DNA of 64,000 nt from positions 1,116,001 to 1,180,000 of the forward strand of contig UGGN01000001.1 in NCBI GenBank assembly GCA_900450455.1. Direction: 5' to 3'. Positions within the stretch are counted from its first letter, which is position 1, and the number at the start of each line of letters is the position of its first letter. Origin of the DNA: [Eubacterium] infirmum. Lineage in GTDB: Bacteria > Bacillota > Clostridia > Peptostreptococcales > Anaerovoracaceae. This document shows, piece by piece, positions 34,270 through 59,400 of the stretch. The notes beneath the pieces are model-generated. The model did no database searches, was not told the origin of the DNA, and was given only the letters and a program-made list of their open reading frames with translations. A program made the position numbers and the translations under genes.

Positions 34270-34304
34270 CTATTAGGTTAGACAAGTTAATATTTGCAAT
34301 TTAT

Positions 34305-34470
34305 AATTATAGGCTAATTAAGAGGGGAAATCGGTGAAATTCCGGTACGGTCCCGCCACTGTGATGCCGATGTGTTTCAGTCATCTTTGTGAATTAACAT
34401 TGCTATATGTATACACTTATGATTGATTCGAGGCTAAGTCAGGTACTTCTTTGCGAGAATTGTTTTGACG
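34305..34470 (+). promoter_or_regulatory. cobalamin riboswitch 1
   Basis: The conserved core is easy to read: AAGAGGGGAAATCGGTGAAA, then TTCCGGTACGGTCCC, the B12 box GCCACTG at 34355-34361, and the distal GGCTAAGTCAGGTAC. A long variable arm lies between. It is followed by about 210 bases of leader before the 931-residue surface protein, and no other gene intervenes. The rest of the leader (34471-34670) has a weak hairpin (TATGTGATT with AATCATATA) but no clear T-run terminator, so the expression platform is not identified. Confidence 0.93.
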
Positions 34471-34681
34471 TGGTTATCGAAGCATTTCATATAAAAGTAT
34501 AAAAGTAGTAAACGGGTTGCTTATGTGATTCGTTATTTTTTGGTTTCTTACGGATAAATCATATATCGAAGATGGGGACAAGGCAAACAGCACCCGCACA
34601 TCAAATACGGTAATAATATTTTATATATTTACAATACACTAAGTTATTACAGATCGTTATAGTAAAGAAAGGAAGTATAAG

Positions 34682-37477
34682 ATGACAAACATGTCAGGAA
34701 AACACTGGGTTAAGAGAATCAGCGTGTTTTTGTTGGCTTTCGCAATGCTATTTACCGTGGTAGTTCCATCTGGCATGGGTAAGGTATATGCAGAGAGCGG
34801 ATCAAATGCACCAATTACTGTTAACCTGACAATTTCAAACAAAACAGCACTAAATGATCTCAAGGATGATTTTGGTAGTAATATCAAGGTGCCTAATACG
34901 GCAAAGAATGAGATTCTAAAAAAGCAGATTACTGTAAATTACGGTGAAAGCTTGCTGGATGCAATCAAGAGAGAGCTTGGTGCATCAAATATCGCATATG
35001 AGACCAGCGGAAACAAGGGTTTCAAAAGTATTGCGGGATTAAAGGAAAAGATAAATATCATATCTAACGTAACAAAGGGCGGGAAAAAAACAACTGATGA
35101 TTTCTCGGGATGGTATAATTTTCTAAACGGAGCAAACAAAAACCTGGGACTAGGTCAGATGAAGAACAAGGCTGAGCTTGCTTCAGGTGAAGTTGCTCTT
35201 AAGAACGGAGACAGCATAGATATAAAATACTCTGTTGATGGAGCTGACTTTGATAATGAGTATAAGCAGATTTTCACTGTTGACGGTTCAATCAAGAACT
35301 TAGAGCTGACAGTGGGTGAAACATATAATGTTCCACTGGATAAGCTGAAATATCAGCCGGAGAACTGGTCATCGGCAAAGAGTTTTGATGTATTCTTCTT
35401 CATGGTAAATAATGATAAAGTTGTAAAGGTTGATAACAAGAGTGACAGCGTTAAAATTACCGCTAAATCAGCAGGAAAGACAGAAATAAGAATTGAGACG
35501 CCAAACGAGATTGCTGACACGATGACAGTAACGGTAAAGGCTAAGTCAGAGGAGAAGCCTGAGCCAAGGATTTTAATCGACGGAACAGTTTGGGATATGA
35601 CCAAGGTTTTTGAGACAGAGAAACAGGGTCCTCACTCACTAAAGGTACAGGTTAAGAAGAACGGTCAGTATGTAGATGTTGATAAGAATAAGATTAAGTG
35701 GAACATCAGTAACGGTGCAACAAGCCGTGTATTCAATGGTGCATTTTGGATTACTGTAGATCAAGAAGCTACATTTACGGCAACTCTTGAGGAATTCCCT
35801 AACGAAAAGGTATCCTTCAGAGCAAAGATTAAGCCTGTTGCAATGACCGACTTTGATGTAAAACTCCCAACAACATATAAGATTAGTGCATGGAACAACC
35901 TTGCAGGAAGCTGGTCAAGCAAGACCGGTGGCAGCTACTATGTCGGTATCATAGAAGGTGAAGGAACAGACAACTACAAGATTCTTCCTAAGCCTGCGAA
36001 TGCTTCAAACACTGAGGTCACTTGGGAAGCCTTAACACCTGAAATCGCAACATATATGGAGCTGTTCAAGAACGGTATCATTCCTGTAAAAGCAGGGATA
36101 GCTAAGTTCAAGGTAACAAGCAAGGCAAACCCAAGCGTATCGAAGATTGTCGAAATTAAGCTTGAGTACAAGACTCCTATGAAGTCAGCGGCAGCTGAGG
36201 AAGAGGAAATCGTACTAAAGGTTGGAGAAACGAAGAATGTAAACTTCAATTTTGACCCGATTAAACCTTCAGAACAGAGATTCAATTGGACTTTTGATAA
36301 GACGGGAATAGTTGATAATGAAGAGGTTGTAGAGTCATCAGGAGTTACCGGTGCACTTCCAACATTCCTTCACAAACTGACAGGACTTCAGAAGGGAACT
36401 GTTACAGCTACTGCAACACCTTGGGATACAACAGGCGGAGCAAAGCCTATTAAGATTAAAATACACGTTCTTGGTACTATGACAATAAAGCCAAATAGAG
36501 AGCTCAACAAGGACAATCATGTTGAAATTGAAGGCGGAAAGTTAACATATACCAAGGGAGTTTCCGATAAGGCTACATACTATGTTAGCAATTCAGTCCT
36601 AAGCAGACTTCTAAATGTTAAGGTTGATGGTGCGGTTATTGACAAATCGAACTACGAGACTGAAGAGGGAAGCATAATTCTAAACCTTAAGAAGGATTAC
36701 CTAAACACACTTGCTCCCGGAAAACACACACTTGAGGTTGAAACAAAGGACGGTAAGGTCGAGACTGAGTTCACAATCAAAACGGGTCCTGTGACATATA
36801 AGGTAACCCACGAGTACAAATCAATAACTCCGGGCAAGGAACTACCTTACGAGGTTACAAGATTTACCCCGGCAACTGTTGAAAACCTTCCGGATCACCG
36901 ACATGTTGCAGTAGTGGATCCTTATCACAAAGAAATTGAAGTTAAAGGCGGTAAGTGGGTATTCAAGGGTTGGAACCCTCAGTCAGCAATTATAAACGGT
37001 GCAGATGTGCACTTTGTCGCAAGCTGGGAGTTCGTAGCTAAGCCTGTTCAACCTGTACAGCCTGCAGCAGCAGACTACTACTTCGAAAAAGGCGCAAACA
37101 TTGTTTGGAAAAACGGCGATAAGGATATTCTTCTCGTTGTTAAATCAAAGACAGACGATAGCCACACATTTGATAACTTCAAGAGTGTAGAGGTAGACGG
37201 AAAGAAGCTGGATGTAGCAAACTATGATGCAAGTCGCGGAAGCGTAAGAATAAGTCTAAAGGCAGCATACCTGAAGACACTAAAACCTGGAAAGCACACT
37301 CTAACAGTAAGATTCAGTAACGGTTCAGCAAGCACAAGCTTCACTGTAGCAGGTTCTGGTGCAGGTTCAGGTGCTGTTAACACAGGAGATGCTTCAGGAC
37401 TAGTTTACATGATTATGCTTTTAGCTTTCGCATCAACAATGATGACTGTACTAGTGCTCAGAAAGAGAGTTAAGTAA
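34682..37477 (+). CDS. cell-surface protein with transcobalamin-like DUF4430 domain, B12-riboswitch controlled
   Basis: 931 residues. Signal peptide 1-38; DUF4430 domain about 85-186 (GESLLDAIKREL, FSGWYNFLNG, LKNGDSIDIKYSVDG), the fold shared with the C-terminal domain of transcobalamin and intrinsic factor. Ig-like (Big_2-type) modules follow, then an X2-like module (about 610-695), a SHIRT-type domain (about 704-785, YKVTHEYKSITPGKELPYEV) and a second X2-like module (about 800-895). The C-terminal anchor is AVNTGD (NTGD 900-903), a hydrophobic helix and RKRVK, a non-canonical sortase signal. Proposed role: corrinoid capture at the wall, derived from riboswitch plus domain. Start supported by GAAAGGAAG. 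Confidence 0.85.
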   Translation: MTNMSGKHWVKRISVFLLAFAMLFTVVVPSGMGKVYAESGSNAPITVNLTISNKTALNDLKDDFGSNIKVPNTAKNEILKKQITVNYGESLLDAIKRELGASNIAYETSGNKGFKSIAGLKEKINIISNVTKGGKKTTDDFSGWYNFLNGANKNLGLGQMKNKAELASGEVALKNGDSIDIKYSVDGADFDNEYKQIFTVDGSIKNLELTVGETYNVPLDKLKYQPENWSSAKSFDVFFFMVNNDKVVKVDNKSDSVKITAKSAGKTEIRIETPNEIADTMTVTVKAKSEEKPEPRILIDGTVWDMTKVFETEKQGPHSLKVQVKKNGQYVDVDKNKIKWNISNGATSRVFNGAFWITVDQEATFTATLEEFPNEKVSFRAKIKPVAMTDFDVKLPTTYKISAWNNLAGSWSSKTGGSYYVGIIEGEGTDNYKILPKPANASNTEVTWEALTPEIATYMELFKNGIIPVKAGIAKFKVTSKANPSVSKIVEIKLEYKTPMKSAAAEEEEIVLKVGETKNVNFNFDPIKPSEQRFNWTFDKTGIVDNEEVVESSGVTGALPTFLHKLTGLQKGTVTATATPWDTTGGAKPIKIKIHVLGTMTIKPNRELNKDNHVEIEGGKLTYTKGVSDKATYYVSNSVLSRLLNVKVDGAVIDKSNYETEEGSIILNLKKDYLNTLAPGKHTLEVETKDGKVETEFTIKTGPVTYKVTHEYKSITPGKELPYEVTRFTPATVENLPDHRHVAVVDPYHKEIEVKGGKWVFKGWNPQSAIINGADVHFVASWEFVAKPVQPVQPAAADYYFEKGANIVWKNGDKDILLVVKSKTDDSHTFDNFKSVEVDGKKLDVANYDASRGSVRISLKAAYLKTLKPGKHTLTVRFSNGSASTSFTVAGSGAGSGAVNTGDASGLVYMIMLLAFASTMMTVLVLRKRVK

Positions 37478-49903: not shown

Positions 49904-49932
49904 TTGCACATTTGCATGTAATCCTGTACAAT
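49904..49932 (+). promoter_or_regulatory. promoter of the FMN-protein/heme-protein operon
   Basis: TTGCAC (49904-49909), a 17-base spacer and TACAAT (49927-49932), about 95 bases before the FMN-binding surface protein. Confidence 0.6.
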
Positions 49933-50027
49933 AATTAAGAGTTGGTTTGTTTAAACTAACTCTTTTAAAATACCTCTAAATTACACAAAAACTATTAAAA
50001 CACATATACTAAGGAACAGGAGGAATA

Positions 50028-53000
50028 ATGAAAACAACTGGTATAAAGGGAGTTATCGCTTTCATTGTGGCTGTAGCCGTAACGGTAGTTATGGTGTATT
50101 CAACCGTACAGATTGTCGATAAGCATAACTCCATTGCCAAACAACAGGCAAAGGAACAGGCCAATGAACAAGCTGCAGGCTCAGAAGTCTCCACCGACAA
50201 TCTTAAGGATGGAGAATACGAAGGTACTGCAACCGGTTACGGCGGCCCTCTTACTGTCCGTATTACCATCAAGGATGGAAAGCTGACAGATATCAAAGTT
50301 ATATCTCAGATGGAGACACCGGAATACTTCAACAGAGCAAAAGCTGTCATAGGTAAGATTCTAAGCAGTGGTAGCGTAGATGTTGACTCTGTTTCAGGAG
50401 CGACTATATCGTCGAATGCAATCAAGAAAGCTGTTGCCGATGCGCTTCGTAAAGCGGGTTCTAAACAGAAAGCAAAAGTGTCAACCGTTAAGAAGGATGC
50501 AAGGAAAGCAAATGGCAGAAGAGGTAATGCAGGAGGAACATTTGCCATTGCAAATACCAACTTAAAGGATGGAACTTACATTGGAACCGGTCAGGGTTTC
50601 AATGGACCGATTAGTGTTCGTGTAACTGTATCAGGTGGAAACATCGTTAATGTTGAAATACTTTCATACAGCGATGATGCACCGTACTTTAATCGTGCTA
50701 GAGCTGTAATCAGTAGACTGATAGGTAAGCCGGGCAAGAGTGTAGATACTGTATCCGGTGCCACCTATTCAAGCCGCGGTATTATTGATGCTGTAAGAGA
50801 TGCCCTGTCAAAAGCCGGTATTTCTGATATAACTAATGCCAATAAACCGGGTAATGGTGGAAACAGCAATACACCTGAAAATGGCAATAGTACGAATCCA
50901 TCTATAAACCCTGAAACAGGGGAACCGTCATATGTAGACGAAGCTCTTCGCAGGTACTATCCTAAAGGCAAGCTGAAGGACGGTGAATACACCGGCATCG
51001 GTATCGGGTATAATAATCCGGGAGGAATTAAGACTTATATAACCGTCAAGGGTGGTGAGATTATCGATGTAAGAGTCGGAACAGGCGCTGACTACCGTGA
51101 CGACATGGGTCCTTTTAGGAGTAAAGCGGAGAGATTACTTCCGTTCCTGAAAGGCAAGGACGGACGTTGGAACATCGCAAAGATGGGACTATACCGTGAG
51201 TATTTTGAAGCTATTAGAAATAGCGGGAATCCAAAGGCTAAAGTAAAGGAGCTTTTTGGAGACAAGTATGTAGGTATGCTCAGCGGATTGTCAGGAAATA
51301 ATACAGTGTCTGATATATCTATTATGTCACGTACTGTAAAGGCATACATGGGTGACCGCTATGCCGGAAAGAAAATGTTTGACAGTGTGACCGGAGCTAC
51401 CGTGAGTGCGAGCGGAATTTCGGCGGCGACAAAGGAAGCTGCGAATAAATCAGCTAACGATTACAAAACTAACTCTGATGTAAAGGAGATTTCAATTCTT
51501 GAGCCAAAGGCCAAGACAGTAGAAGTTAATAAAGGCGACTCCGTTGACTTCTCGGAACTTAAAGTTAAGGTTGTTAAGAAAGACGGCTCTGTTAAGGAAG
51601 TGGAGTGGAAAGATTTTGTAGCTAATGGACTCAGCATAACAGATGAGGACGGCAAAGCTATCAAAAATGGAAGTGATTTAAAATCATACGGTGATAAGAA
51701 GATAATCAAAGCAAAGGTAGTTCACAAGGAATCACTTTCATATGATACCTTTAGGATTTTGGTTGGACATTATAGCAAGGATTATATTGTCGGACTGGAA
51801 TATAGTGCTGACGGTTCAAAATGGTACAGGGTGAAAAACATTAAGAAAGATCCTACTGATATCCGTAAAATTGACGACCAACAGATTGTTGATGCTCCTT
51901 TATCGTTCGAGTTCGAAACAGTTAAGCTTCGCGTTGTTTCAAAGAGCGGACATCGCTATGAGTATACACCTGATAAAAAACCTGTAAATAAGAAGGTAAA
52001 ATATACTCTTAATAAAGACGAGAATCCTAATACCCCTAAGACAATCTATGTGGAGTTCCAGCTCTCAGGTACAGAAGCTGATAAAGATCTTGTAGATGAT
52101 AACGGCGGCGGTGGAGGTGGCGGCGGAGAGCCGGCACTACCTGAAGTGGAGGTTGACAGCAAGGTAATCGAAACTGATCTTGATGAACCCGGAAGACCAA
52201 AGTGGACTGAACGCGTGCCAATAAAACCGGCAACAGTTAAGAGCCTGGATAAGGATGCGGAGATGCAGACCACAATCGAAGGACTTCCAAAGGGACTTAG
52301 CTTTGATGGAACCAATATTACGGGAACACCGGTTGTAGAAGATAATAACTGGGACGGCGACGGCGGCATGTTCAAGACAGTAACTCTGAAGTTCAAGGCA
52401 AAGAAGAACGGAAAGCTGCTGGTTAGAAAGTACAAGTACTGGATTTACAGAGATAAAGACCGCGACGGAATAGCAGATGATGATGAAGATGGCGGAATAG
52501 CGTTTACACCACAGAGACTCAGCAGTAAGCCGCTCGTTGTAGATGGCAAAGAGCCAACGCTTGATGATTACAAAGCTCTGTTCAGCAACATACCGTCAGA
52601 CGGTTCTGTAAAGGTAAGCATAAAGCAGAAGCCTGACCTCAGTAAGAAGGGTATAACGAAAGCAGTTCTTGAGTTTTCTGTAGATGGAGTAAATAAGAAC
52701 GGCAAAGCGACTGTTATGATTGATGTGAAGAACCCTGTTAATGGCGGTGGTAGTGGAGAGCCGGCACTACCTGAAGTAGAGGTTGACAGCAAGGTAATCG
52801 AAACTGATCTTGATGAACCCGGAAGACCAAAGTGGACTGAACGCAAGCCGATAAAACCGGCAACAGTTAAGAGTCTGGATAAGGATGCGGAGATGCAGAC
52901 CACAATTGAAGGACTTCCAAAGGGACTGAGCTTTGATGGAACCAATATTACGGGAACACCGGTTGTAGAAGATAATAACTGGGACGGTGATGGCGGCATG

Positions 53001-53576
53001 TTCAAGACAGTAACTCTGAAGTTCAAGGCAAAGAAGAACGGAAAGCTGCTGGTTAGAAAGTACAAGTACTGGATTTACAGAGATAAAGACCGCGATGGAA
53101 TAGCGGATGATGATGAAGATGGCGGAATAGCGTTTACACCACAGAGACGCAGCAGTAAGCCGCTCGTTGTAGACGGTAAAGAGCCAACGCTTGATGATTA
53201 CAAAGCGCTGTTCAGCAACATACCGTCAGACGGTTCTGTAAAGGTAAGCATAAAGCAGAAGCTTGACCTCAGTAAGAAGGGTATAACGAAAGCAGTTCTT
53301 GAGTTTTCTGTAGATGGAGTAAATAAGAACGGCAAAGCAACCGTTATGATTGATGTGAAGAACCCTGTTAAGGGTGAAACAAAAGCGAGCTATGTTTCAA
53401 GCGAGAATTATTCACATGGAGCTGCTATGGCCGTACCTAATTTAAAAACACCTACAATTGAAAAGCAGAGCAGGCAATCTGCTAACTCTAATAATTTCAG
53501 CAAAGAAAAAACACAAAAACAGGCGGAGCAGGTAACTGCTCCGGCTACGGCTGAAAAAGAAAGGATGGGACAGTGA
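50028..53576 (+). CDS. surface-anchored triple FMN-binding-domain protein
   Basis: 1182 residues. One N-terminal membrane helix (7-27) anchors it outside. Three FMN_bind domains follow (about 59-144, 179-264, 316-472), each with the covalent-flavin acceptor motif: D120SVSGAT126, D240TVSGAT246 and D452SVTGAT458; ApbE-type transferase would attach FMN to the threonine. After a beta-rich linker, two near-identical 210-residue repeats (from about 700 and 910) hold a Ca-type loop DKDRDGIADDDEDGG. The C-terminus is Gln/Thr/Lys-rich, with no sorting signal. Likely role: flavin-based extracellular electron transfer, as for PplA in Listeria. It overlaps the heme-type gene downstream by 4 bases. Confidence 0.9.
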   Translation: MKTTGIKGVIAFIVAVAVTVVMVYSTVQIVDKHNSIAKQQAKEQANEQAAGSEVSTDNLKDGEYEGTATGYGGPLTVRITIKDGKLTDIKVISQMETPEYFNRAKAVIGKILSSGSVDVDSVSGATISSNAIKKAVADALRKAGSKQKAKVSTVKKDARKANGRRGNAGGTFAIANTNLKDGTYIGTGQGFNGPISVRVTVSGGNIVNVEILSYSDDAPYFNRARAVISRLIGKPGKSVDTVSGATYSSRGIIDAVRDALSKAGISDITNANKPGNGGNSNTPENGNSTNPSINPETGEPSYVDEALRRYYPKGKLKDGEYTGIGIGYNNPGGIKTYITVKGGEIIDVRVGTGADYRDDMGPFRSKAERLLPFLKGKDGRWNIAKMGLYREYFEAIRNSGNPKAKVKELFGDKYVGMLSGLSGNNTVSDISIMSRTVKAYMGDRYAGKKMFDSVTGATVSASGISAATKEAANKSANDYKTNSDVKEISILEPKAKTVEVNKGDSVDFSELKVKVVKKDGSVKEVEWKDFVANGLSITDEDGKAIKNGSDLKSYGDKKIIKAKVVHKESLSYDTFRILVGHYSKDYIVGLEYSADGSKWYRVKNIKKDPTDIRKIDDQQIVDAPLSFEFETVKLRVVSKSGHRYEYTPDKKPVNKKVKYTLNKDENPNTPKTIYVEFQLSGTEADKDLVDDNGGGGGGGGEPALPEVEVDSKVIETDLDEPGRPKWTERVPIKPATVKSLDKDAEMQTTIEGLPKGLSFDGTNITGTPVVEDNNWDGDGGMFKTVTLKFKAKKNGKLLVRKYKYWIYRDKDRDGIADDDEDGGIAFTPQRLSSKPLVVDGKEPTLDDYKALFSNIPSDGSVKVSIKQKPDLSKKGITKAVLEFSVDGVNKNGKATVMIDVKNPVNGGGSGEPALPEVEVDSKVIETDLDEPGRPKWTERKPIKPATVKSLDKDAEMQTTIEGLPKGLSFDGTNITGTPVVEDNNWDGDGGMFKTVTLKFKAKKNGKLLVRKYKYWIYRDKDRDGIADDDEDGGIAFTPQRRSSKPLVVDGKEPTLDDYKALFSNIPSDGSVKVSIKQKLDLSKKGITKAVLEFSVDGVNKNGKATVMIDVKNPVKGETKASYVSSENYSHGAAMAVPNLKTPTIEKQSRQSANSNNFSKEKTQKQAEQVTAPATAEKERMGQ
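52126..53385 (+). repeat. tandem 630-bp intragenic repeat
   Basis: Two head-to-tail copies (52126-52755 and 52756-about 53385) within the FMN-binding protein gene, nearly identical at the DNA level, including most synonymous positions. Differences seen at the protein level are few (for example ERVPIKP versus ERKPIKP, QKPD versus QKLD). This points to a recent duplication and possible copy-number variation. Confidence 0.88.
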
Positions 53577-54274
53577 CTTTAATTATCGGAATAGTGCTGA
53601 CTGTTGTATTTTATATAGTGTCAGCCAATGCTATAAAGAAACATCCGGGGGTGTTCTACATAGGAATTTATATATGGTGCGGACTGGTCGTTTTCTATTT
53701 CAATATGGGATATGACAAGAACTTCCCGGAATGGTTCAATGAATACTTTATGAATATATTCGCCAGGGGAATCTTTTCAACAGCCACATTCATGGTTGTT
53801 ATGTTTCTTGGGACTATTACAAAACACAGCAAACTGTCAAGAAAGCTTATGAGCGTGCGTGGAGAAATATCGATTATTGGTAGTTTGATTGTTCTGAGCC
53901 ACAACGTGGTATTCGGCGTGACATATTTTCCGATGCTATTCACAAATCCAAAAGCTATGCCTACCAGACAGATGATAGCATCAATTATCACACTGTGCTT
54001 GCTGGCAATGTTGATTCCTCTCTTTATAACATCGTTCAAATTTGTTCGACGTAAAATGAAAGGTAAGACTTGGAAAAATGTACAGCGCCTGGCATATCCA
54101 TTCTTTATCGGAATATATGTGCATGTAATGGTGCTGTATTCGGCAGATGTGAAAGCACATCTATCAGGTATAATTATCTACACGCTTATATACGGAAGCT
54201 ATATAGTTTTACGTCTGCGTAAGGCGGCACTAAAGGCACGCAAGTCGCGCATGACAACGGAGCAGGCAGTGTAG
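53573..54274 (+). CDS. ferric-reductase-like heme membrane protein
   Basis: 233 residues with about six membrane helices. Candidate heme ligands are His110 in RGEISIIGSLIVLSHN and His184 in AYPFFIGIYVHV, each inside a helix; with K-x-W-x-x-x-Q-R-L-A-Y this resembles the ferric reductase/YedZ-MsrQ fold. It begins with GTG inside the stop of the FMN-protein gene, so the two are translationally coupled. Proposed role: pass electrons from the membrane to the surface flavin protein. Confidence 0.8.
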   Translation: MTLIIGIVLTVVFYIVSANAIKKHPGVFYIGIYIWCGLVVFYFNMGYDKNFPEWFNEYFMNIFARGIFSTATFMVVMFLGTITKHSKLSRKLMSVRGEISIIGSLIVLSHNVVFGVTYFPMLFTNPKAMPTRQMIASIITLCLLAMLIPLFITSFKFVRRKMKGKTWKNVQRLAYPFFIGIYVHVMVLYSADVKAHLSGIIIYTLIYGSYIVLRLRKAALKARKSRMTTEQAV

Positions 54275-54353
54275 TTAGAATTGACAGGATATGTGGTTCG
54301 GCTTATGAAGAGCTGAATTAACCTCATATAATATAAAAGTAAATATTAACAAT

Positions 54354-54400
54354 AAAACAGGTCGGAGGCTCAATAGAGTATCCGACCTGTTTTATTATAT
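54354..54400 (+). terminator. terminator of the FMN/heme operon
   Basis: AAAACAGGTCGGA pairs perfectly with TCCGACCTGTTTT around a 14-base loop, followed by an AT/T-rich run. It separates this operon from the next, B12-regulated unit. Confidence 0.9.
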
Positions 54401-54424
54401 ATATATTTTTTTTGTGAATAGATA

Positions 54425-54453
54425 TTGACAATTTTGTGAACAAGAAATACTAT
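54425..54453 (+). promoter_or_regulatory. promoter of the second B12-regulated transcript
   Basis: TTGACA (54425-54430), a 17-base spacer and TACTAT (54448-54453), ending just upstream of the second cobalamin riboswitch. Confidence 0.75.
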
Positions 54454-54480
54454 GTAAGTACAATTGGAAAATTAAATATC

Positions 54481-54573
54481 ACTCACATAAGGGGAAACAG
54501 GTCAAATTCCTGTGCGGTCCCGCCACTGTAGTGCATCTCATTAAGAATGCTAAGTCAGATTGCCTTATGTGAG
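54481..54573 (+). promoter_or_regulatory. cobalamin riboswitch 2 (compact)
   Basis: About 93 nt. A perfect 11-base closing stem CTCACATAAGG (54482-54492) with CCTTATGTGAG (54563-54573) encloses GGGGAAACAGGTCAAATTCC, GCGGTCCC, the B12 box GCCACTG (54522-54528) and GCTAAGTCAGA. It is much shorter than riboswitch 1 and lacks its long variable arm, so it looks like a compact (Cbl-II-like) class. Confidence 0.93.
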
Positions 54574-54627
54574 AGTTTGCATAGAGCGAGAGACTCATTG
54601 ATGCAAATATATTAAGAAAGCGAATAC

Positions 54628-54661
54628 GGGCTGTATCTCATTTGAGGTACGGTCCTTTTTT
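54628..54661 (+). terminator. riboswitch-controlled intrinsic terminator
   Basis: GGGCTGTATCTC pairs with GAGGTACGGTCC (three wobbles) around a 4-base loop, followed by TTTTTT. It sits 55 bases after the aptamer and 170 bases before the coding start, so it is the likely off switch when cobalamin is bound. The antiterminator is not resolved. Confidence 0.8.
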
Positions 54662-54833
54662 ATCGACATATTAGCATGTCGATTATATTGGAAACAAAGG
54701 AGGTGGTATGTTATTGATTGAGGAAGAAATGCAGGTAGCGCCGCATGATTCCGGGCGGCACTTTCCGGGAGATAAGACGGAATCATCTGTTTCAGTCCTA
54801 CATGCAAAGCATGTGAGAAAGGAGAATATTGAA

Positions 54834-55700
54834 ATGTCGATTAAAAAAAATAACAAAATGCTTAGAAGAGCCGGAATACTGCTCTTAGTACTGGGTATCA
54901 TTTTCAGCATGGGCTCGGCAGCATTTGCCGCACAGACTGATCTCGATTGGACGTCCGTGCCGAATCTCACGACCTATAATACGCCTTTTAACCAGGTTGT
55001 TACACAGGGTAAAAATGGATATGTTGAGTTTAAGGTACAGGCTGCTGACAATAATTATAAGCCGTTGCTCTTTCCTTCAGCTGATTATCCTAATGCGCTG
55101 AGCTACAGCTGGTTGCACCAGGGAGAAGAGGGCTATTACAGTGAGGATATGACATCGGAAATAATAAGTGCCAATCCTTCGGGTTATATAGCAAAATATA
55201 GCGTTAATCTCAGACCTGATGTAGATATAGGTGCTAATGTGCTTTCAATTACAAGCCCGGCAGGCGGATATCTTGATCTGGGTCTCATAGTAAATCCTAA
55301 ATCAGCTCAGCCTGATGCGAATGTGAATATCAGAATATATCATGACAGTGTAAGCGCTGATAATAATCTCGTGTCGGTAACGAAAAGCGTCAATTGCGAT
55401 GCATTCGGAAGCGAGGTTAATTATCCTACTGCAATAGACTCCGTAGCTTCCGTAGCACAGATTCCGGACAATACGGCGGAGCATTCGGTAAATGCATATA
55501 TAACCCAGCTTAAGGTAGGAGAAACTCTGTATGTCGGAGGAGTAAACTATAAGTACTGGATGTACGGCGTATATGGGTCAGATGGAAACCTAAAGCCAAT
55601 TTCATCCAAGATTGGCGGAGAAGCGTATATGATAGAGGATGGAGATACCGTAGTTTGGCTATACGGAACATGGGGTTCTCTTCCTTCAAGCATAAGATAA
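54834..55700 (+). CDS. secreted protein with transcobalamin-like C-terminal region, B12-riboswitch controlled
   Basis: 288 residues: signal peptide (ILLLVLGIIFSMGSAAFA), then a beta-rich region with no family I know, and a C-terminal part (from about 210) reading YITQLKVGETLYVGGVNYKY, W-x-Y-x-V-Y and EDGDTVVWLYGTWG, which fits the W...DGD-x-V-x-W pattern of DUF4430/transcobalamin-like domains. No anchor, so secreted or bound to a partner. The ATG at 54834 follows AAAGGAG and starts a clear signal peptide; the in-frame extension upstream to 54708 lacks one. First gene after riboswitch 2. Confidence 0.75.
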   Translation: MSIKKNNKMLRRAGILLLVLGIIFSMGSAAFAAQTDLDWTSVPNLTTYNTPFNQVVTQGKNGYVEFKVQAADNNYKPLLFPSADYPNALSYSWLHQGEEGYYSEDMTSEIISANPSGYIAKYSVNLRPDVDIGANVLSITSPAGGYLDLGLIVNPKSAQPDANVNIRIYHDSVSADNNLVSVTKSVNCDAFGSEVNYPTAIDSVASVAQIPDNTAEHSVNAYITQLKVGETLYVGGVNYKYWMYGVYGSDGNLKPISSKIGGEAYMIEDGDTVVWLYGTWGSLPSSIR

Positions 55701-55766
55701 GAAGATGTTAAGTCTCAGCCCGCATTCAGCGGGCTGGGACCGATTTAATATTGGATTAAGGTAGAA

Positions 55767-58700
55767 ATGATGTATAAGAAAAAATATATAAGCAGGGCAC
55801 TCTGTCTTCTGATTGCTCTGTCCCTTATTTTGATGAATATTCCTCTTTCGCATGCTGAGGATAGCATATCAAATATCCCGGGCGAACGTGTCGGATTTGT
55901 TACAATTAGCGTTGAGGACAGTCTTCCTGTACCGGAGGGTAAGGATTGGAAGCAACCTCTCGGACAGATACTGCCTCCGGTAAAGGTTGCGCTATACGAA
56001 AACGATACGATGATGGACTGCATAGAGCGAGTGTGTGAGGAAAATGATGTAAGCATAGGTTGGAGCAATGAGTCCAAGACATATATAAATGAGATAGCAG
56101 GTCTCAAAGAAAAGGAAAAGGGCGATTACAGCGGCTGGATGGGAACCTTGAACGACTGGTTTACAGACAAGGGATTCAAGGAATTCTCATATTCAAAGGG
56201 AACCCTTAAGGATGGCGATGTAATAAGACTTCAGTACACTCATAATTTAGGACAGGATTTAGGGCAAGACTGGAACAGCACTGACAGAACTGTAAAGAAA
56301 ATAAGCTTCTCGGAAGGAAGCCTAAGCAGTGAATTTTCAAAGGATAAATATGAATATGAACTAAAACTTGATAAGAATAAGGCAATCAGTATTTTCTCAG
56401 AAGCCACAAACAAAAAATATCAGGTTAAACACTTTCTAAACGGCAAGGAAATAAGTAAAAATGAGCCTGTTAGAGTGAAAAACGGCGATAAACTTGAAGT
56501 TAAGTGTGGAATGAAAGGCTGGGCGCCGGATGAAAGCGCAACGGAAGAAAACGGGAAAGTCTACAGTTTTACAATAAAAAGTAAAGAGCAGGTGGAACCG
56601 CCGGTAAATGATGAACCCGTAGATGTCGAACTTCTTCTGAGCGCTAATGCGGGGTATTTTTATGTTCTTTACGATAGCGAAGGCAGAAAGGTAGCAAGTA
56701 AGAGACTTCAATTAAAGTATTTAGATACTGAAAAAGAACTAATAGATGATGTCTTAGGCGACGGGAGTTGTCATGTTAAATGGAATCTCAAACTGAAGCC
56801 TGGGAATTACACTATAAAGACCGGAATTAAAAACAAAAAAGATGATAATTTTAAAACCATTGATACTCAACTTCCGATAACAGTTAAGCCGGGAATAGAA
56901 AACCAGAGGCAGGTTTTCTTATATCTATGCATAGATGGAATGAATGCTATAGATAGAAAAGAATGGAAAGAGCTCAAAGAAAAGGGCTGGAGTCCAAAGA
57001 TGGATGTGGAAGTAATAAGCTCCTCGGGCGAAATTATGAAACCAAATTATAGATTTAATGCTAAGGCCGATTTTTCCGAATTCACATACCTGCTAAGAGC
57101 TGACGAAGGCTTCAGCTATACGGTAAAGGGAAGATTCCTTGATAAGAGGCTTGGGGTTAGAATATTTAATAACCCGGGTATTATAAAGATAAAGAATAAT
57201 TATTTCACATGTACAATAGATAAGGAGTTCCTGAAAAAAATTCATCCGGTCGGCTCAGGTTCCGGTTGGGCAGATGTAGATATCAGAGCTGATTATATCA
57301 AACCGGAAAAGGCAGTTTACCGCATAAGAGTTCCTAAGGGACTTAAGAATATCAAGATGTATGCCCAAAATAAAAAGGCCTACTATCCTTTTGAAGATTA
57401 TAATGTAGCATCACAAAATCTACTCAGCGACATCAAGCGTGAATCTCTTGATGAAAATTACGATGTTTATACCTTCAAGGGCCCTAAAAGTGGGGGAGCG
57501 TATGGTTACTCTTCAATACTTTTGATAGGCGGAGGCGAGGGAACGGACTATGTGAAAAGCATGGGAGGACTTCTTCTTGAGGCTGGGAAGGGGGATGAAT
57601 ATGCCAATGTTGACTTTCTACCTCGTAAGAAGGGAGAGGCTCCGTCAGGTGAAGCTCATGGCTATGCCGCAAAATTCCTAAAAAACGATATATATACGAA
57701 CATAAAAGATGAGGGCATGTATAGAGCACTCAATCCGGGAGAGGAGGTGGAGCTAAACACCTTCAGAGTAACTCAGGGAACGGGCAGCGATGTAGGAAAC
57801 ACCATCCTCGAGCCTGACAAGCATTATAAGGTGATGTACGGAGATACTGTAAGCGTGAGTGGCACCAAGGGATCCGATGGAAGAGAATGGGTTGACATCA
57901 AAGCGAGCAACAGCAAAAAGGGCGTCTCCATCGTGGCTATTACCTATGATGAGACCGGACGCTTGTGGTATAACACTTCAAACGGGAAAACGGAGGAATC
58001 GGTTGCACCTGCTATAGACCCCGCCAATACCGGAATCGCAATCTACGATGTCGGAGGAAGCGGCCTTGAAATAGATCCTAACATAAAGGTTCGCAAATAC
58101 GATACCGTTTACTTCCCTAAGTCGATTACCGGACCGAGCGGAAGAAAGCTGGGTGGTAAGGAATTCAAGGAGTTCACATTTGAGCCTAAGGCTGCATCGG
58201 GAATTGCTTCGGTAGAGTTCCATAGACCTATACAGACTAAGGATGACTATAACAACGATGCCTTCTTTGCCGACAATACATGGGAAAAGGCGGATGTTAA
58301 CGGAAGTAAGTATACGGTAAAGCTTCGGGACGGTAGAAATATTATAAGGATAAGGGATAATAACGGCGGAGTAAGATATTTTACACTGAGAGCGAGAGCT
58401 ATAAATGTAAAGACAAAGAATTTGTCAAATGAAGGCAAGGTTATCAAGAAGGGTGATAGGATTAGAGTTACATTCTCAGACCTCGATCTTCCTCTTCAGA
58501 AACTTTCTGCAATATATAATCCGGGTTTCCCTGATACCACTTATCTCATGGGCAAGCTGAACGGTAAGGATATTATCGGACCTAAGACTCAATATGATAT
58601 TGTCAATAATAATTACTTTGAGTTTGAAGCAGGCGATGGAGATGAAATCAAGCTTAGCGGAATACGCATCCATTCGGGACACTTCGGAAGCGGTCTTGAC

Positions 58701-59363
58701 GCTCATTGTGAGGTCGACAAAAACGGTCTTCCGCCAAACCTGAATGCGGGTCAAAGTGATGGAATATACTGCTACTTCGACGATGTCAGCCTGCCTGTTG
58801 AAGATAAGCTTGAGACGACATATCCGGATGCGGATAACAAGGAACTAAAAGCCGAGGCAAGTAAAGATAAGGTCAAGTATACAAAGGGAGTATCAAAAGG
58901 TGCTGTCATTTATTGGAAGGACGGTCAATTTAATAAGTTCGACAAGCTTACGCTCGACGGTGAGCCGATTGATAAATCGTGCTATGAGATAAGCGAAGGA
59001 AGTATACGACTAAAGCTTTCATCTGCATACCTTGATACACTGTCATACGGTGAACACAGGATTAAAATGACTCAAAGCGACGGTGCATATGGTGAAGGTG
59101 TTATCCTCATTGCAAAAAAACAAGAGGTTCCGGAAAACGGGCAGAATCCACCGGGTGGAAATACAGCAAAGCCGGGTCAAGGACCATCAGAAAATCCAAA
59201 TAATGAAGGACCGGGAGGCAAAGCAAAGAATGCCGTTAATAAATCGAAAAAAGCAGCTAATACCGGCGATAACGGTAGTTTAGGAATCGAATTTATTATG
59301 CTTCTTGCCGCTTCGGGTGGATTTGCATTTGCAATCAGAAGAAAGAAAAATACACTGCAGTAA
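55767..59363 (+). CDS. large wall-anchored protein with DUF4430 domain, B12-riboswitch controlled
   Basis: 1198 residues. Signal peptide 1-30 (CLLIALSLILMNIPLSHA); DUF4430 domain about 72-160 (NDTMMDCIERVCEENDVSIG, DYSGWMGTLND, LKDGDVIRLQYTH). A cadherin-like/Ig-like stretch follows (about 165-275), then a long middle with no recognised domain, and an X2-like module near 1040-1120 similar to those of the 931-residue protein. The C-terminal anchor is ANTGD (NTGD 1165-1168), a hydrophobic helix and RRKKN. It follows the 288-residue protein gene after 66 bases, so riboswitch 2 should control both. Role proposed: surface corrinoid binding; inference. Confidence 0.82.
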   Translation: MMYKKKYISRALCLLIALSLILMNIPLSHAEDSISNIPGERVGFVTISVEDSLPVPEGKDWKQPLGQILPPVKVALYENDTMMDCIERVCEENDVSIGWSNESKTYINEIAGLKEKEKGDYSGWMGTLNDWFTDKGFKEFSYSKGTLKDGDVIRLQYTHNLGQDLGQDWNSTDRTVKKISFSEGSLSSEFSKDKYEYELKLDKNKAISIFSEATNKKYQVKHFLNGKEISKNEPVRVKNGDKLEVKCGMKGWAPDESATEENGKVYSFTIKSKEQVEPPVNDEPVDVELLLSANAGYFYVLYDSEGRKVASKRLQLKYLDTEKELIDDVLGDGSCHVKWNLKLKPGNYTIKTGIKNKKDDNFKTIDTQLPITVKPGIENQRQVFLYLCIDGMNAIDRKEWKELKEKGWSPKMDVEVISSSGEIMKPNYRFNAKADFSEFTYLLRADEGFSYTVKGRFLDKRLGVRIFNNPGIIKIKNNYFTCTIDKEFLKKIHPVGSGSGWADVDIRADYIKPEKAVYRIRVPKGLKNIKMYAQNKKAYYPFEDYNVASQNLLSDIKRESLDENYDVYTFKGPKSGGAYGYSSILLIGGGEGTDYVKSMGGLLLEAGKGDEYANVDFLPRKKGEAPSGEAHGYAAKFLKNDIYTNIKDEGMYRALNPGEEVELNTFRVTQGTGSDVGNTILEPDKHYKVMYGDTVSVSGTKGSDGREWVDIKASNSKKGVSIVAITYDETGRLWYNTSNGKTEESVAPAIDPANTGIAIYDVGGSGLEIDPNIKVRKYDTVYFPKSITGPSGRKLGGKEFKEFTFEPKAASGIASVEFHRPIQTKDDYNNDAFFADNTWEKADVNGSKYTVKLRDGRNIIRIRDNNGGVRYFTLRARAINVKTKNLSNEGKVIKKGDRIRVTFSDLDLPLQKLSAIYNPGFPDTTYLMGKLNGKDIIGPKTQYDIVNNNYFEFEAGDGDEIKLSGIRIHSGHFGSGLDAHCEVDKNGLPPNLNAGQSDGIYCYFDDVSLPVEDKLETTYPDADNKELKAEASKDKVKYTKGVSKGAVIYWKDGQFNKFDKLTLDGEPIDKSCYEISEGSIRLKLSSAYLDTLSYGEHRIKMTQSDGAYGEGVILIAKKQEVPENGQNPPGGNTAKPGQGPSENPNNEGPGGKAKNAVNKSKKAANTGDNGSLGIEFIMLLAASGGFAFAIRRKKNTLQ

Positions 59364-59400
59364 TCACTATGTATTAGTTAAAACAAAGAAAAAGGCATGC

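Follow-up and report, generated by a model that had tools for sequence, protein, structure and literature searches.

The window, a stretch of 64,000 nucleotides from contig UGGN01000001.1 of [Eubacterium] infirmum, encodes two overlapping genes that probably form a two-gene electron exporter, in which a heme cytochrome feeds a relay of flavins on the cell surface. The best reading is that this pair belongs among the MsrQ-like and multi-flavinylated systems already described, as a previously unannotated member. In MsrQ-like flavinylation systems, a cytochrome of the ferric reductase domain (FRD) type is encoded beside an extracytosolic FMN_bind protein that is flavinylated by ApbE, and fused forms occur (Meheust et al. 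2021, PMC8238504; PMC11334425). The window's genome (G000) is 1.9 Mb in size and nearly complete; together with its close relative G008, Mogibacterium timidum, and M. pumilum, it makes up what we refer to as the Mogibacterium set. The two genes are as follows:

50028 to 53576, forward strand: predicted multi-flavinylated surface protein, 1182 aa (Pfam, PDB relative 8p2b, motifs, and alignment)
53573 to 54274, forward strand: putative short-form FRD membrane protein, 233 aa, predicted to hold a single outer heme (remote homology, alignment, and model)

The 1182-aa protein begins with a membrane anchor, which is followed by three FMN_bind domains (approximately aa 70–140, 190–262, and 316–477, the third carrying a long helical insert) and then by Ig-like repeats. 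Pfam reports two of these domains with an E value of 3e-35 and the third above the cut-off at 24 bits. The ApbE motif D-x-x-S/T-G-A-T is intact in all three (DSVSGAT at residue 123, DTVSGAT at residue 243, and DSVTGAT at residue 455), which bears out the triple FMN-bind surface protein proposed in an earlier interpretation of this DNA made without database searches (the sequence-only reading). By having more than one FMN_bind domain together with an N-terminal membrane segment, the protein shares with known multi-flavinylated proteins (PMC8238504; PMC10339131; PDB 8p2b) the serial, beads-on-a-string arrangement of FMN_bind domains on an exported protein, but it differs from them in the long conserved helical insert of its third domain and in its Ig-like repeats, and the number of repeat copies varies between species. 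In an alignment with the proteins of M. timidum, M. pumilum, and Anaerococcus, this insert was kept in all pair-bearing species aligned; in genome G160, a domain resembling FMN_bind 3 is found on a separate SLH wall protein within the cytochrome's cluster. Breaks in the FMN gene of M. pumilum (L018) were considered as frameshifts and rejected, as they are runs of N. A phase-variable G tract was sought in the glycine-rich linker of the FMN protein and was absent.

The second gene starts with GTG and overlaps the first by four bases (GTGA), in agreement with the coupling noted in the sequence-only reading, and seven membrane segments are predicted in its product. That reading also called this product a heme-type membrane protein, a description that holds only by remote homology (to L048, MsrQ, and STEAP/NOX5) and not by a direct Pfam match. 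An hhalign comparison with MsrQ of Escherichia coli covered 92 residues with an E value of 5e-4 and a probability of just 31%, and the NCBIfam model MamZ gave a weak, partial match. PDB sequence searches with the 233-aa cytochrome returned nothing useful. The AlphaFold model of the protein has a pLDDT of 84, and its best sensible Foldseek matches were STEAP2, STEAP1, and NOX5 (E values of 0.02–0.7, none less than 0.001). The homologue L048, itself a cytochrome–FMN_bind fusion, passes the PF01794 cut-off with 29.9 bits, whereas the window protein falls below detection; its relation to MsrQ-like systems is therefore by homology only.

A residue alignment of 29 sequences, MsrQ included, revealed that R96 and H110 are invariant, that Q171 stands in place of the MsrQ histidine in 27 of the 29 sequences, and that H184 is retained in 23, among them all Mogibacterium and Anaerococcus pairs. 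The histidine pair of the outer heme (H110 and H184) is thus present, and the inner ligands are replaced by R96 and Q171, the ends of which both lie on the cytoplasmic side as judged from positively charged loops. With glutamine at the position of the inner histidine, the protein does not have the two heme sites of MsrQ-like systems. Most short bacterial FRD proteins keep the outer-heme histidines and have arginine and glutamine instead of the inner ones (Zhang et al. 2013, PMC3591440), and the 233-aa protein fits this outer-heme-only signature, with heme b as the predicted cofactor. It shares with the short bacterial FRD proteins and STEAP the outer-heme histidine pair as well as Arg (TM3) and Gln (TM5) for the inner ligands, and differs from them in being paired with, or fused to, proteins predicted to be flavinylated and in having seven predicted segments rather than six.

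The pair is conserved beyond the window. G008 carries it at the same site with 94% identity, whereas M. timidum and M. pumilum carry it at other chromosomal sites (the membrane protein is 87% and 80% identical, respectively, to that of the best-matching named loci), and it is also kept in four Anaerococcus and in genome G729. Among 27 homologous cytochrome loci, 22 have an FMN_bind domain fused or adjacent. In more remote forms, the cytochrome is accompanied by two FMN proteins, a small one and a multi-FMN one, and in some cases also by an FMN_bind protein of the wall-bound kind (CWB2 or SLH); five loci (L023, L024, L081, L082, and L085) encode cytochrome–FMN_bind fusions followed by apbE, eetA, and eetB. 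The fusions have an additional hydrophobic segment ahead of the C-terminal FMN_bind domain, which would place this domain outside the cell. The cytochrome family is sparse overall: of 391 genomes from the class, 15 have a member, as do 4 of 398 from the phylum. As side observations on this family, several fusions share, as a conserved neighbour on the upstream side, a gene for a secreted HID-type protein (L024:8270-9859, L085:9707-10864, and L086:7798-9183). At L078:4234-13111, two cytochrome/FMN_bind clusters stand in tandem, accompanied by an FMN riboswitch and the gene of a membrane protein, probably a riboflavin S component, approximately 3 kb downstream.

The search for apbE that the sequence-only reading had suggested found a single copy in G000 (G000:C2:342212), beside an rnf cluster that includes RnfG, and homologues of EetA and EetB adjoin it. 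Fourteen of the 15 tested genomes with the cytochrome have apbE; the sole exception, G137, has a cytochrome without FMN_bind. Together, the intact motifs, apbE, the FRD-type cytochrome, and the conserved pairing across Mogibacterium, Anaerococcus, and further Clostridia support the electron-export interpretation of the sequence-only reading. No member of the UbiA family, to which the menaquinone prenyltransferase belongs, was found in any Mogibacterium tested. Like the flavin-based extracellular electron transfer (EET) system of Listeria (Ndh2, DmkAB, EetAB, FmnAB, and PplA), the present system has a surface flavoprotein as its exit, ApbE, and EetA/EetB homologues, but it has a membrane cytochrome instead of a detectable UbiA-family quinone enzyme. 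Listeria EetB serves the export of FAD (PMC9973259).

In the mechanism that we infer, the 233-aa protein would span the membrane, with a single heme b close to its outer face. On the cytoplasmic side it would receive electrons, probably donated by reduced flavin or a flavin reductase. MsrQ with Fre, as well as STEAP, take electrons from reduced flavin on this side of the membrane. Because no menaquinone prenyltransferase was found, reduced flavin is favoured as the donor and menaquinone or menaquinol, which we also considered, is disfavoured. The outer heme would then pass electrons to FMN 1 and 2 of the surface protein made together with it, and the three FMN groups, attached by the single ApbE of the genome, would relay them across the wall, from where they would probably leave at FMN 3, the domain with the long insert. 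Their last acceptor would be extracellular, the leading candidates being ferric iron or iron complexes and another surface flavoprotein; by analogy with the FRD superfamily, iron is the most natural candidate, but nothing adjoining the pair proves it. Such an exporter, comprising three flavins and a single predicted heme, would be simple and testable, and no quinone prenyltransferase was detected in its host. The cytochrome also represents a branch of flavinylation-associated cytochromes that escapes the usual domain model and, as this branch is invisible to PF01794, surveys based on that model undercount electron exporters in Gram-positive anaerobes such as Mogibacterium and Anaerococcus.

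Several observations weigh against this interpretation. The 233-aa protein had no Pfam match even at an E value of 10, and its likeness to MsrQ and STEAP is remote. H184 is replaced by glutamine in five homologues and by tyrosine in one. For the FMN region, AlphaFold gave a model of low confidence (pLDDT 57) that is too weak for use. Five cytochrome loci (L047, L079, L083, L084, and L087) have no nearby FMN_bind gene, the last being a pseudogene. Finally, apbE lies away from the pair, whereas a typical MsrQ-like cluster contains it. The pair thus shares with MsrQ-like systems an FRD-type membrane cytochrome encoded beside an FMN_bind gene, which here overlaps it, and differs in that the Mogibacterium cytochrome is below PF01794 detection, has one-heme ligands, lacks an NAD domain, and has its apbE elsewhere. 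The five homologues with glutamine for H184 come from L029, L030, L028, and L078, and in four of them a histidine appears three positions past H110, which suggests from the alignment that a heme ligand has been swapped or lost in these proteins.

The pair is framed by the following signals:

49905 to 49932, forward strand: putative promoter, TGCACA-16-TACAAT (consensus scan match only, 9/12)
49941 to 49960, no strand: palindrome GTTGGTTTGTTTAAACTAAC directly after the -10 element, putative operator (conservation upstream of the pair)
54358 to 54396, forward strand: terminator hairpin ending the flavin/cytochrome unit (fold -29.7 kcal/mol, z -10.4)

The promoter stretch is partly conserved in the four Mogibacterium, and the palindrome, in the form GTTAGTTT-N4-AAACTAAC with 0–2 mismatches, lies upstream of the pair in each of them; 20 simulated 64-kb sequences contained no match. 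It is probably the operator of the pair and, as it is kept in four species with differing chromosomal contexts, the pair probably has regulation of its own. We considered the palindrome as a terminator of the upstream gene and rejected this, because M. timidum has retained it although the upstream gene in that species is divergent. Another palindrome, TTTAGGTTA-N7-TAACCTAAA, is present just upstream of the start in three Anaerococcus pairs (L020:5420-5680, L021:5270-5530, and L022:5410-5670) and is just partial in A. hydrogenalis (L019); its half-sites recall DtxR-type operators, which we regard as a lead only. Past the terminator, which separates the units as the sequence-only reading had stated, the B12-riboswitch operon that it had also recognized is confirmed as the next unit:

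54470 to 54609, forward strand: adenosylcobalamin (AdoCbl) riboswitch of the following unit, which is transcribed separately (Rfam RF01482, 65.3 bits)
54834 to 55700, forward strand: secreted protein encoded at the head of the B12 operon, outside the pair (open reading frame, no Pfam match)
55767 to 59363, forward strand: DUF4430 surface protein with an LPXTG-like C-terminus, outside the pair (DUF4430 26.0 bits in Pfam, LPXTG 16.9 bits in NCBIfam)

Other functions can be proposed for the pair. It could serve iron assimilation, as a ferric or heme-iron reductase whose action releases iron to be taken up, a possibility that we consider real but rather unlikely. The putative FRD/STEAP-like fold of the 233-aa model would suit this function, as would the link of MsrQ-like flavinylation clusters to VIT1 iron transporters (PMC8238504) and the repressor control suggested by the upstream palindromes of Mogibacterium and of three Anaerococcus out of four; moreover, another FMN_bind surface protein (L036) is encoded directly upstream of a heme-uptake operon in the same genome. 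However, no iron transporter was recognized beside the pair in any of the genomes examined that carry it, in which the neighbouring genes are only partly annotated, and the motif of the heme-operon FMN_bind protein is degenerate (SNAT). At this locus (L036:9110-14681), the surface protein is followed by genes for Shp, a binding protein, and FecCD; heme uptake was considered as a partner at L036 and L034, where the FMN_bind motifs are degenerate (SNAT and TSAT). It is improbable that the membrane protein lacks heme and is a mere assembly or docking factor, with the surface flavins fed by the Rnf complex: G000 does have RnfG and apbE in its rnf cluster and six homologues have lost H184, but the invariance of H110 and the presence of H184 in every Mogibacterium and Anaerococcus pair argue for a heme, and the cytochrome–FMN_bind fusions imply direct transfer. 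We give very little credence to the proposal that the pair, in the manner of MsrPQ or the flavinylated fumarate reductases, repairs oxidized proteins of the surface or works for a dedicated reductase of the fumarate type. The homology to MsrQ and the commonness of flavinylated reductases (PMC8238504) speak for it, but the pair has no MsrP-like or fumarate-reductase domain and no such shared neighbour was recognized at the pair loci.

A further, speculative proposal of the sequence-only reading, that Co(III) corrinoids are reduced extracellularly by the pair in concert with the B12-regulated DUF4430 proteins, appears highly unlikely, also when cobalt is taken as the substrate. We examined this link in four ways, through gene neighbourhoods, riboswitch content, a deletion in G008, and regulatory signals, and it was unsupported except in genome G382. 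Cobalamin riboswitch matches number 15 in G000 and 12 in G008, but none was detected in M. timidum, M. pumilum, or the four Anaerococcus, so that six of the eight pair-bearing Mogibacterium and Anaerococcus genomes searched have no match. M. timidum and M. pumilum also lack DUF4430. In nearly all genomes, the lack of co-occurrence that the sequence-only reading had itself named as refuting was observed for the link to the B12 operon. G008 keeps the pair but has no counterpart of window positions 54298–59380; 43 bases of the DUF4430 gene remain there (37 of 43 matches, the best of 200 simulated controls reaching 26), which indicates that the B12 operon, present in the common ancestor, was lost from this lineage by deletion. 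Rfam scans placed a cobalamin riboswitch near the cytochrome at two of the 27 loci (the window and L048), not clearly in excess of the roughly 0.7 loci within 10 kb expected by chance (28 matches in ten genomes of approximately 2 Mb, with 20-kb stretches), an expectation that is far higher in riboswitch-rich genomes such as G000, and no other FMN_bind gene of G000 is near a riboswitch. In the window, the riboswitch is downstream of the pair, past the terminator, and not on the same transcript, and the pair has its separate palindrome. The counter-example is G382 (L048:2295-10553), in which a cobalamin riboswitch (96 bits), lipoprotein genes, CbiQ, CbiO, CbiM, and two more genes lie on one strand and the cytochrome–FMN_bind fusion closes this run, whose products include an HID-domain protein; apbE comes just before and a DUF4430-SLH gene just after. 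No other genome of the order of G382 carries the cytochrome gene. Given G382, we retain corrinoid or cobalt reduction as a residual possibility, unlikely as it is; that G382 and the adjacency in G000 reflect an ancestral extracellular Co(III) reduction aiding capture or release seems equally unlikely. The position of the pair beside B12-controlled surface genes is best explained as coincidence, and a functional tie between the pair and the B12 operon, a separate unit, is not supported.

The operon itself has an attenuator-like hairpin at 54628–54655, after the riboswitch, and its first gene most likely starts at 54834, where a signal peptide is encoded, rather than at 54708. In G008, a 586-aa relative of the window DUF4430 protein (L027:5827-7587; 29% identity over 152 aa, no Pfam hit) is encoded approximately 5.6 kb from the pair. 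Among the approximately 15 cobalamin riboswitch matches of G000, at least 10 precede large (482–1791 aa) surface proteins, most of which bear signal peptides (window positions 34281–37477 and 54470–59363, and L050, L051, L052, L053, L054, L057, L058, and L059), and such a surface proteome, if under B12 control, may deserve more notice than the flavin/cytochrome pair. At L055:1524-6008, a cobalamin riboswitch is followed by genes for a secreted protein of 269 aa, which had no credible match in Pfam, and then for a binding protein, a permease, and an ATPase; the last three are probably a corrinoid importer, and the secreted protein may be a surface corrinoid binder.

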